59,198 nt of DNA from Pseudomonadales bacterium. Lineage in GTDB: Bacteria; Pseudomonadota; Gammaproteobacteria; Pseudomonadales; Pseudohongiellaceae. Below, one piece after another: positions 26,933 through 30,497 of the stretch. Positions within the stretch are counted from its first letter, which is position 1; each line of letters starts with the position of its first letter. The stretch spans positions 1 to 59,198 of the forward strand of contig JALEHB010000157.1 of assembly GCA_022763285.1 (NCBI GenBank), written 5' to 3'. The position numbers and the translations under genes are program-made. The notes under the pieces were generated by a model. The model saw only the letters and a program-made list of their open reading frames with translations. It had not been told where the DNA came from and ran no database searches.

Positions 26933-28156
26933 TCAGCCCAGACTCAGAAAGAAACTGGCGATGGCGGCACTCATCAGGTTGGCCATGAATCCTGCCAGTA
27001 CCGCCTTGAGCCCAAGCTCGGCAATTTCTCCCCGCCGTTGCGGTGCCATAGTACCAAGTCCCCCCAATTGAATACCGATGGAAGCAAAATTGGCAAACCC
27101 GCACAGGGCGAAGGAAACCACTGCCTGGGTATGGGTACTGAAGGACTCAATCTGAGCGGTAAATTCCACAAAGGCCACGAATTCATTGAACACCAGCTTC
27201 TGGCCGATGAGGCTGCCGGCCATGCGGGATTCCTCCCAGGGCACTCCCAGCAGAAGGGCCAGAGGCTGCAATACCACCCCAAACAAATACTGCATTGACA
27301 GACTGTCGAAACCGAAAAGCCCACCAAGCCAGCCCAGCAGGGCATTGATCACCGCGATCAATCCGACAAAGGCCAGCACCATGGCACCGATATTGATGGC
27401 CAGGTTCATGCCACTGCTGGCACCTGCAGCCGCTGCATCGATCACATTGACGTGGCGCTCGAATTCCAGGTGAAAATTTTCATCTTCATTGGTGATGGTT
27501 TCGGTTTCCGGCACAAACATCTTGGCCATAAGGAAGCCACCCGGCGCGGCCATGAAACTCGCTGCCAGCAGGAAGCGGATATCCACACCCAACAGAACAT
27601 AGCCAGCCAGAACCGAGCCCGCGACCGTGGCCATGCCCCCCACCATGATGGCAAACAGTTCGGAGCGGGTCATGCTGGCAATATAGGGCCGCACCACCAG
27701 GGGAGCTTCTGTTTGCCCAACAAAGATATTGGCAGTGGCCGACATGGATTCAGCCTTGCTGGTACCGAGCAGTTTGCGTAGCGCACCACCAATAACCCGA
27801 ATCAGCCAACCCATAACTCCCAGGTAATACAGCACCGAAACCAGGGAGGCAAAGAACACCACAACGGGTAGCACGTGAAAGGCAAATATAAACCCCATCT
27901 CAAATTGACCAATGGGACCGAATACAAACGCGATACCTTCCTGAGCGTTGTCCAGCACACTGGACACCGCGGAGGAGATAGCTTCCAGCATGGCGATGCC
28001 GGGCGGCAGGTAGAGCGCCAGAGAGCCCAGCAATAGCTGCAGGCCAAATGCCAGGCCCACCGTGCGCCAGTTAATGCGGCTACGTGCAGAAGAGCAGGCA
28101 TAGGCTATGGCCAGCAGGGTCAGCATGCCCAACAGACTAATCGGTGCAGTCATCAA
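26933..28156 (-). CDS. nupC: Concentrative nucleoside transporter (NupC/CNT family)
   Basis: A 407-residue inner-membrane symporter that takes up nucleosides with H+ or Na+. Recognisable parts are the N-terminal helix segment, the GQTEAPLVVRPY loop (a core CNT substrate-binding motif), GGMATVAGSVLAGYV, and near the end KLVFNEFVAF and ALCGFANFASIGIQLGGLG. Its start overlaps the stop of the uridine kinase gene by 4 bp, so uptake and phosphorylation of nucleosides are coupled in one operon. Confidence 0.93.
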   Translation of the reverse strand: MMTAPISLLGMLTLLAIAYACSSARSRINWRTVGLAFGLQLLLGSLALYLPPGIAMLEAISSAVSSVLDNAQEGIAFVFGPIGQFEMGFIFAFHVLPVVVFFASLVSVLYYLGVMGWLIRVIGGALRKLLGTSKAESMSATANIFVGQTEAPLVVRPYIASMTRSELFAIMVGGMATVAGSVLAGYVLLGVDIRFLLAASFMAAPGGFLMAKMFVPETETITNEDENFHLEFERHVNVIDAAAAGASSGMNLAINIGAMVLAFVGLIAVINALLGWLGGLFGFDSLSMQYLFGVVLQPLALLLGVPWEESRMAGSLIGQKLVFNEFVAFVEFTAQIESFSTHTQAVVSFALCGFANFASIGIQLGGLGTMAPQRRGEIAELGLKAVLAGFMANLMSAAIASFFLSLG

Positions 28157-28815
28157 TCCGGTCCTTGTAACTGAGACAATAGTCTTTCAGCCAGTGCCTG
28201 CAGGCGGGATTCCTGCAGAGTCTGACCATCGATGAGCAGATCGGCATGCTCTCTGCTCGGCAAAACATATTCCTGATACATGGGCAGTACACTGTCCGCA
28301 AACTGCTGCTTCACGGATTCTTCCGTTCTGCCGCGCTCACGAACATCCCGCTGAATGCGGCGGTCCAGGCACAGCTCAATAGGTGTATCCAGATACAGGG
28401 TCAGGTCAAACTGTTTGCGCAGCTGAGGATCAGACAACACCAGCACCCCTTCCACAATGAGCAACTGCGGAGGCTGTAATGGCCGGGTACGGCGTGCCCG
28501 GGTGTGGTTGACGTAATCATAGACAGGCACATTCACATGCTCGCCGGCACGCAGGCTGTTTAACTGCTCAAGCAGCAGTTCATGTTCCAGTGCCCGGGGA
28601 TGGTCATAGTTGACCCGGGTGCGTTCGCTGAACTCCAGATGATCCTGATTACGGTAGTAGGCGTCTTCGGCTAGCACTTCGGCAGCCAGGCCCTGATCCA
28701 TGGTTGCCAGGCAGTCAGTCAGGTTTCTGGCCAGCCAGGACTTCCCGGAACCGGATGGGCCGGTGATTGCGATTATGCTGCCTAGCAATTCAATGATCCG
28801 CCTGCGGAAAGACAA
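28153..28815 (-). CDS. udk: Uridine kinase
   Basis: A 220-residue kinase that phosphorylates uridine or cytidine in pyrimidine salvage. The P-loop GPSGSGKS is at 19-26, followed by AEDAYYRNQ, NYDHPRALEHELL, PVYDYVNHTR and LIVEGVLVL, all in the family order. The start as given is a TTG at 28815; a second TTG at 28788, nine codons later, is an alternative with a better-placed purine-rich site. It is 22 bp downstream of the selenoprotein gene and overlaps nupC. Confidence 0.92.
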   Translation of the reverse strand: MSFRRRIIELLGSIIAITGPSGSGKSWLARNLTDCLATMDQGLAAEVLAEDAYYRNQDHLEFSERTRVNYDHPRALEHELLLEQLNSLRAGEHVNVPVYDYVNHTRARRTRPLQPPQLLIVEGVLVLSDPQLRKQFDLTLYLDTPIELCLDRRIQRDVRERGRTEESVKQQFADSVLPMYQEYVLPSREHADLLIDGQTLQESRLQALAERLLSQLQGPD

Positions 28816-28837
28816 TTAAGGAGGCGTGATGCAAGCT

Positions 28838-29065
28838 TTATTCTGATCTTTGATCAATCAGAGCAGCAATCTCGCCAGGTTCCGGAAAGCGCTTACTCGC
28901 TCCCTTGGAAAAAATCAGCTCGCCATCAAGCTTCACGTCAAAAATACCACCACCGCCTGCCACCAGACTGATCTCAGCAGGCCCGCGATCCAGAATCTCT
29001 GCTGACACACGGTCAGCCTCGGGTCGATAGTTTCAAACGGAACAGTATTTGATTTCGATGCGCAT
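28838..29065 (-). CDS. SelW-like selenoprotein with an in-frame TGA codon (CxxU)
   Basis: Read from the ATG at 29065 to the TAA at 28838-28840, one frame of 76 codons is interrupted only by a TGA at 29033-29035. With selenocysteine there, the 75-residue product has the redox motif C8-S-V-U11 followed by NYRPEADRV, then VAGGGGIFDVKLDGELIFSK and a short C-terminal helix. This is the complete fold order of the Rdx/SelW/SelT/SelH thioredoxin-like family, in which CxxU or CxxC sits in the loop after the first beta strand. GAGG lies 8 bp before the ATG. A SECIS-like hairpin follows the TGA. Probable role: small cytosolic redox protein. It precedes udk by 22 bp on the same strand. Confidence 0.88.
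29001..29017 (-). promoter_or_regulatory. Candidate bacterial SECIS hairpin
   Basis: On the minus strand GCTGAC-CGTGT-GTCAGC forms six perfect base pairs around a five-base loop with G at the second loop position. It starts 15 nt after the TGA codon, so the loop begins 21 nt downstream. This agrees with the described bacterial SECIS consensus: a short stem-loop inside the coding sequence, a fixed distance from UGA and a G early in the loop. It would recruit SelB with Sec-tRNA. Confidence 0.75.
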
Positions 29066-29182
29066 CTGATTCGCCTCTGACTGAATTTAACCCAGAAAGA
29101 CTGCTCTTGTTAACCACTGCAGCAGCAATCGGGCAAACCGTAAACTTTCTGTAATATAAACCGGCTTCATGACACCCCAACT

Positions 29183-29208
29183 CCAGTTCCGGGGTCCAAT
29201 TCCGGGGG
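29183..29208 (+). repeat. Two tandem 13-bp units, possibly REP/RAYT-related
   Basis: CCAGTTCCGGGGT is followed directly by CCAATTCCGGGGG, then GTCAGAGC. The TTCCGGGGTCAGAG-like string is reminiscent of REP elements associated with RAYT transposases, from memory. No transposase gene is nearby. It lies in the 190-bp gap between argD and the selenoprotein gene. Confidence 0.25.
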
Positions 29209-29255
29209 TCAGAGCGCCTGTCCCTGTTCCAACGGACTTTACCGGCTGGCTACGG

Positions 29256-30497
29256 TCAGGCGGCAGCAATCTCCGCCACAGTGGCAGCCAGAATATCCAC
29301 ACCTCGGTCGATGTCAGTCTGGCTGATATTGAGAGGTGGCAACAACCGCAACATGTTGCCGCCGGCGGTGCCCACCAGCAGCTGGTTCTGCCTGAGCGCC
29401 GCCATCAATTCAACATTATTGGTCTTGCACTTGAGACCAATCATCAGGCCGCGGCCATGGACCGAATCCAGCTGTTCCGGGAAGCGCTCAATCAGTCCCT
29501 CGAGTTTGCGTCGCAGACTCTCGCCCTTGCTGTGCACTTCATCCAGCAGACCCGGCTCCAGCAACAAGTCCATTACTCCATTACCCACGGCCATGGCCAG
29601 CGGATTGCCACCAAAGGTACTGCCATGACTGCCAACGCCCATGGTCTGCCCCACCGCGACACTGGTCAGGCAGGCGCCCACCGGAAAACCGCCGCCAAGC
29701 CCCTTGGCCAGTGCCATGATGTCCGGAGCGATGGCGCTGTGCTGGTGGGCAAACAATTTGCCACTGCGGCCGATGCCACATTGCACTTCGTCGTACATCA
29801 AAAGCAGGCCCTGTTCATCACAGAGTTGCCGAACTGCCTGCAGAAATTCGGTGGATGCGGGACGAATGCCACCCTCACCCTGCACCGGCTCAAGAATAAT
29901 CCCGGCCGTCTGCGGCGTAATCTGCTCCCGCAAGGATTCCAGGTCACCCCAGGCGGCCTGATCGAAACCGTAGTCAGTGGGGATAAAGCCGCGGGTATGA
30001 TTTTCATTGCCAGCCGCCGCCAGTGCTGCCAGGGTTCGGCCATGAAAACTCTCAGTAAAGCCGATAATCCGGAAACGTTCCGGGTGTCCCGTGGCAAGCT
30101 GGTATCCGCGGATCGCCTTGAGCCCCGCCTCGATTGCCTCGGTGCCGGAATTGGCAAAGAACACCTGGTCGGCAAAGCTGTGTTCGGTCAGGCGCCTGGC
30201 CAGGCGCTCGGCACCGGGAATACGAAACAGATTGGAGATATGCCAGAGCTTATGCGCCTGCTCGTCCAGCACCTTCACCAGATGGGGGTGGGCATGACCG
30301 AAACTGGTGACGGCAATGCCGGAGAGAAAATCCAGGTAGGCTTCCCCGGACTCGGTAAACAGTTCACTGCCCTTGCCGTGACTGAAGACCAGATCAGCCG
30401 GTGGACTGTAGTTTGGCCAGAGGGATTGCCGCTCTGACTGGTTTGATGTCTCTGTGCTGGACACGATTTTCTCTCCCACAACGTTTGCTGACAGCAT
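29256..30497 (-). CDS. argD: Acetylornithine/succinylornithine aminotransferase
   Basis: A 413-residue class III PLP-dependent aminotransferase, about the normal length for ArgD. Visible motifs are FANSGTEAIEAGLKAIRGY, SFHGRTLAALAA, LEPVQGEGGIRPA, MYDEVQCGIGRSG and the PLP lysine in ALAKGLGGGFPVGA. It converts N-acetylglutamate semialdehyde to acetylornithine in arginine synthesis and can serve lysine or ornithine pathways. No other arg gene is in the window. A related omega-aminotransferase function cannot be fully excluded. The ribosome binding site is weak. Confidence 0.9.
   Translation of the reverse strand: MLSANVVGEKIVSSTETSNQSERQSLWPNYSPPADLVFSHGKGSELFTESGEAYLDFLSGIAVTSFGHAHPHLVKVLDEQAHKLWHISNLFRIPGAERLARRLTEHSFADQVFFANSGTEAIEAGLKAIRGYQLATGHPERFRIIGFTESFHGRTLAALAAAGNENHTRGFIPTDYGFDQAAWGDLESLREQITPQTAGIILEPVQGEGGIRPASTEFLQAVRQLCDEQGLLLMYDEVQCGIGRSGKLFAHQHSAIAPDIMALAKGLGGGFPVGACLTSVAVGQTMGVGSHGSTFGGNPLAMAVGNGVMDLLLEPGLLDEVHSKGESLRRKLEGLIERFPEQLDSVHGRGLMIGLKCKTNNVELMAALRQNQLLVGTAGGNMLRLLPPLNISQTDIDRGVDILAATVAEIAAA

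Follow-up and report, generated by a model that had tools for sequence, protein, structure and literature searches.

A short gene with an in-frame TGA in a Pseudohongiellaceae genome is very probably a SelW-like selenoprotein gene

Introduction

Does a TGA codon inside an otherwise intact reading frame end the protein, betray a decayed gene, or specify selenocysteine (Sec)? This question is raised by a short frame in a contig of a Pseudohongiellaceae bacterium (Pseudomonadales), within the stretch of 59,198 nucleotides analyzed here and called the window. An earlier note, made from the letters of the window, had placed at positions 28838–29065 an overlooked SelW-like selenoprotein gene carrying its own SECIS element.

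The SelW-like family has been known for a long time, and marine data contain it in abundance. SelW-like CxxU proteins are reported as the most abundant selenoprotein family in the Sargasso Sea set, with 48 genes (PMC1088965), and are described in the same terms for the GOS data (PMC2398784). Reviews place SelW-like selenoproteins under PF10262 (PMC9312934, PMC13188914). In Epsilonproteobacteria, SelW genes are described as missed by annotation (PMC4607533), and for Campylobacter jejuni SelW (CJnc60), full-length translation past the UGA is reported from Ribo-seq and proteomics (PMC11955535).

Results

The gene, here called selW, lies on the minus strand (28838–29065), with its ATG at 29065 and a TAA at 28838–28840. 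The coordinates of the earlier note are right; the strand had been left unstated. Read on the plus strand, the same interval holds two in-frame TGA codons and lacks an ATG start, and this reading was rejected. The product, 75 residues followed by TAA, reads MRIEIKYCSVUNYRPEADRVSAEILDRGPAEISLVAGGGGIFDVKLDGELIFSKGASKRFPEPGEIAALIDQRSE and corresponds to the 76-codon frame that had been described with a single TGA in a C-x-x-U motif. The sole internal stop is the TGA at 29035–29033 (codon 11), at the second redox position of C-S-V-U, where it would be read as Sec (residue 11). The SelW/Rdx residue order that had been proposed (CSVU, NYRPEA, GGGGIFDVKLDGELI) is present in full, as is the GAGG ahead of the start codon, within a Shine-Dalgarno-like AGAGG at 29074–29078 on the minus strand, 8 nt ahead of the ATG. 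A standard-code reading ends the product at residue 10, and selW is absent from the standard-code list of open reading frames of the window. Promoter-like matches are weak: two occur in 28750–29300 (shuffle mean 0.5, sd 0.7), of which one is on the selW strand (29113–29084, 9/12). A weak terminator-like match also lies within selW (28932–28917; shuffle mean 0.7).

On the same strand, a gene of the phosphoribulokinase/uridine kinase family (28153–28815) begins with a TTG at 28815, 22 nt downstream of the selW stop, and we infer that the two genes are co-transcribed. Next after the kinase gene comes a Na+-dependent nucleoside transporter gene (26933–28156, minus strand). The order selW, kinase, transporter recurs in four loci among 40 compared (L050, L062, L075, L078), whose flank lengths differ, and was not seen in the available flank of the same-genus relative L056/L088. 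The order may reflect functional linkage or shared descent.

For family assignment, Sec was replaced by Cys. Pfam Rdx (PF10262) covers residues 2–71 (E 9.6e-19, 67.8 bits against a cut-off of 22.6), and NCBIfam TIGR02174 is matched with 51.9 bits (cut-off 34.2). The score for the equivalog NF041051 SelTWH_Campy, 86.4 bits, lies below its cut-off of 88, and the protein is therefore filed under the wider SelW/Rdx family only. Both TIGR02174 and NF041051 are matched at E up to 0.001 by every one of the 20 sequences in the alignment of chosen relatives. The AlphaFold2 model, again with Cys for Sec, has a pLDDT of 93 and places CxxU (residues 8–11) between a predicted strand (2–8) and a predicted helix (14–27). 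The best PDB match of the predicted fold is the SelW-related 2fa8; the Foldseek ranks continue with 3dex, 2ojl, 2obk, 2oka, and 2p0g, then MIEN1 (2ljk) and mouse SelW (2npb). Foldseek E-values are below 0.001 for 2fa8, 3dex, and 2p0g and weaker for 2npb (0.019), and a sequence profile search of the PDB returned the same eight entries. The Cys-type bacterial Rdx structures 2fa8, 2p0g, and 2oka have the fold in common with the window protein (TM by query length 0.87–0.92), with the redox motif in the same place. The selW product is thus predicted to adopt the thioredoxin-like SelW fold.

A putative SECIS apical hairpin occupies 29001–29017 on the minus strand, its stem formed by GCTGAC (29017–29012) and GTCAGC (29006–29001) and its loop by CGTGT (29011–29007), in agreement with the 6-bp stem starting 15 nt after the TGA, with a G in the loop, that had been noticed before. 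Folding of some 60 nt after the TGA, which had been suggested as a check, gave a divided answer. In a 61-nt piece starting at the TGA, the optimum is another structure (z 0.24; 110/200 shuffles match or exceed its stability). The hairpin is optimal in a 41-nt piece, though 31/200 shuffles fold equally well; for a 23-nt piece 7/200 do. An Rfam scan of 28500–29400 at E up to 5 gave two weak matches only, neither at the hairpin. Single-sequence folding thus leaves the proposed SECIS role unproved, and it is comparison with relatives that supports it.

The comparison comprised 40 Sec rows (the window and 39 relatives), 38 of them distinct over 51 nt; L056 and L088 apparently stem from a single record, and L066 is like L067. 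Each of the 38 distinct rows has a 5-nt loop with G as its second base. Stem cells are paired in 97.4% of cases against a shuffled mean of 83.0, and two-sided, compensatory changes number 30 cells against 11.0 in shuffles. When the partner strand is slid by 1–3 columns, pairing falls to at most 47.8%. Two-sided changes affect three of the six pairs, a count equalled by 51/500 shuffles, while the other measures are equalled by 0 to 14/500. RNAalifold finds the same stem unprompted. The full stem is present in 32/38 distinct Sec rows and one pair is broken in the other six; none of the 54 located Cys homologues has the full stem. A hairpin unconserved among relatives had been named as evidence against the selenoprotein reading; instead, the stem is kept by compensatory changes.

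The stem could still be a by-product of the conserved peptide ADRVSA, with Sec inserted through some other signal. ADRVS is conserved in 28/38 distinct rows, conserved codons could pair by chance, and the 61-nt fold leaves the hairpin out. However, within the ADRVS rows Ala and Ser covary at their third positions, pairing in 25/28 against a permutation mean of 16.1, with 0/20000 permutations as high, although the permutations ignore the relatedness of the rows. The third positions of Asp and Val pair in 28/28, with one U-A replacing C-G. Arg is encoded by CGT in 26/28 of these rows, whereas CGT makes up 0.17 of the Arg codons in nine genes of the window. Moreover, and independently of the permutations, the stem survives shifts between peptide types: the ten other distinct rows form a stem of equal size at the same place with AVSLAA-type peptides, and the divergent locus L092 does so with ALRARA and a C-G instead of a G-C as its fourth pair. 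L092 entered a further analysis, in which 17 of 39 distinct rows were hand-picked to cover the subgroups and the stem again covaried. In other words, one stem is encoded by three different peptides in the SelW lineage (ADRVSA, AVSLAA, ALRARA), and a hairpin that merely follows from its peptide is very improbable.

To place the TGA among relatives, we compared several genome samples. The genome_contigs scan yielded 30 loci; its peptide patterns omit residue 11, and therefore it did not favor TGA, although it did favor the YRPEADRV peptide. A viral_contigs scan found no relative. In the order-level sample, an Rdx match occurs in 98/293 genomes, with one internal TGA in ten of them, the genome of the window included. 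One Rdx gene in this comparison (G085:C141:10870-11083) gave two overlapping matches, one of them containing a TAA, which reflects either a broken gene or an assembly error. In the class-level sample, the subfamily profile matched in 50/369 genomes, with an internal TGA only in the genome of the window and in G382, the source of L092. At the codon that aligns with residue 11, TGA occurs in all 39 subfamily relatives and TGC in the single conventional Rdx of the set. L092 is the fortieth TGA case; it was excluded from the 39/39 count and the 38-row covariation and included in the tree. As Cys controls, 60 loci were taken: tblastn located 55, namely 54 Cys genes and the TGA-bearing L092, and the five unlocated were omitted. 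Because L022 and L089 represent one gene, the 54 Cys rows contain one duplicate. In a midpoint-rooted tree of 93 rows, one branch (support 100/99) separates 39 Sec rows from the 54 Cys rows, and no Cys form occurs on the Sec side among these rows. Many inner forks are weak because there are few columns. The Cys-type Rdx genes compared at class and order level thus differ from the window gene in having Cys at the Sec position, in lacking the full stem, and in lying on the other side of the tree.

These data bear on the view that selW is a pseudogene of a Cys-type Rdx gene whose TGT or TGC mutated to TGA. Such a change requires a single base, and within the order stop-free Rdx genes outnumber those with a TGA. 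Yet the TGA keeps its codon position among relatives across Pseudomonadota, Verrucomicrobiota, and one Planctomycetota record, instead of appearing at the unrelated positions that would have spoken against a selenoprotein. The gene of the window has no second internal stop, and its residues are conserved in subfamily relatives both before and after the TGA. The conserved TGA and the intact downstream frame argue strongly against decay, as does a covarying hairpin absent in full form from the Cys homologues. We consider a pseudogene extremely improbable.

The machinery for Sec was sought in the genome of the window (3.40 Mb, 293 contigs, 91.5% complete), where the earlier note, finding no such gene in the window, had advised looking for selA, selB, selC, and selD. 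Each best match exceeds its cut-off: selA 581.6 bits (267.9), selB 333.1 (242.25), selD 266.2 (125), and tRNA-Sec 65.1 (gathering score 47), the last also called by ARAGORN as tRNA-SeC with anticodon tca (UCA). Matches below the cut-offs (selB 6, tRNA-Sec 9, selD 1) were left unused. In 14 control genomes, many matches occurred at E 0.001, and those over the cut-off numbered 2/14 for selB, 5/14 for tRNA-Sec, and 2/14 for selD. The C-terminal part of known SelB binds the SECIS element; here it is not fully seen because the selB gene is interrupted by a contig end. The selD gene (L018 235-2502, G000:C291) is one frame of 755 residues with a C-A-G-C-G-G-K motif, presumably the position of Sec in some SelD proteins, and a long N-terminal extension, which we take to be an NADH-dehydrogenase-like part. 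This arrangement resembles the Ndh-SelD fusions described in the GOS survey, all of which are reported with a CxxC motif (PMC2398784). The organism thus has the genes for decoding Sec, with selB incomplete.

Other candidate selenoprotein genes were also sought in this genome. The 91.5% complete assembly showed no classical FdhA selenoprotein, as TIGR01591 gave only two matches, both below the cut-off and without a stop, and three CMD (AhpD-type) matches have no internal stop. Three AhpC-TSA (peroxiredoxin-like) genes have one TGA each inside the matched part, at C186:4308-4670, C278:5295-5690, and C132:6738-7085, in the contexts GGUTMQC, DWUPFC, and SWUGCR. They probably encode additional selenoproteins of Prx-like types already known.

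Among 21 genomes tested, selA is present in 11/11 with a TGA-type SelW and in 5/10 without, which fits a SelW gene that needs the machinery and a machinery that does not need the SelW gene. Five genomes of the same genus or family (G081, G044, G183, G224, G204) keep selA with no match to a TGA-type SelW; there, the Sec machinery presumably serves other selenoproteins.

A near-cognate tRNA, for instance that for Trp, might read the TGA, which alone would permit such read-through, but nothing else was found in favor. The genome has Sec machinery, and all 54 located stop-free homologues carry Cys, the usual counterpart of Sec, at this position, so that this explanation has next to no probability.

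Discussion

We conclude, with a probability of about 0.96, that selW belongs to the SelW-like (Rdx, CxxU) family and functions as a selenoprotein gene, with SelB reading the hairpin and Sec inserted at the UGA. The gene, the position of its TGA, the machinery genes, the covarying hairpin, and the predicted fold were established here; the mode of insertion and the redox role are drawn from the known family. By that analogy, SelB with Sec-tRNA would bind the hairpin 16–32 nt after the UGA, Sec would be delivered to the UGA codon to give a 75-residue thioredoxin-like protein, and C-S-V-U would serve as a thiol/selenol redox center. The selenoprotein interpretation of the earlier note has held on each point where it was at risk, namely the machinery, the TGA position, and conservation.

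The window gene is an ordinary member of a SelW-like selenoprotein family already known from bacteria. Campylobacter jejuni belongs to another bacterial group than the organism of the window. Its SelW (CJnc60), likened here by description, is also small, unannotated, and has Sec at a UGA (PMC11955535), whereas the window protein scores just below the cut-off of the Campylobacter type. The marine SelW-like genes, as described for the Sargasso Sea and GOS sets, have in common with the window gene the CxxU motif, the SelW family, and a SECIS element that follows the UGA directly and carries a G in its small apical loop (PMC1088965, PMC2398784); in these descriptions, no decisive difference was found.

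The three peptide types suggest a tentative idea, to which we give somewhat less than an even chance: the recoding signal, a 6-bp stem with a 5-nt loop and G as its second base, may have dictated the residues of SelW helix 1 after the UGA, with three peptide solutions, perhaps locking the lineage into Sec. For the SelW-like family, the GOS survey reports 56 Cys homologues beside 427 Sec forms (PMC2398784). The window gene adds a sound SelW example in a genome with Sec machinery, and the comparative set offers a clean case for how far a recoding signal within a coding region shapes its protein.
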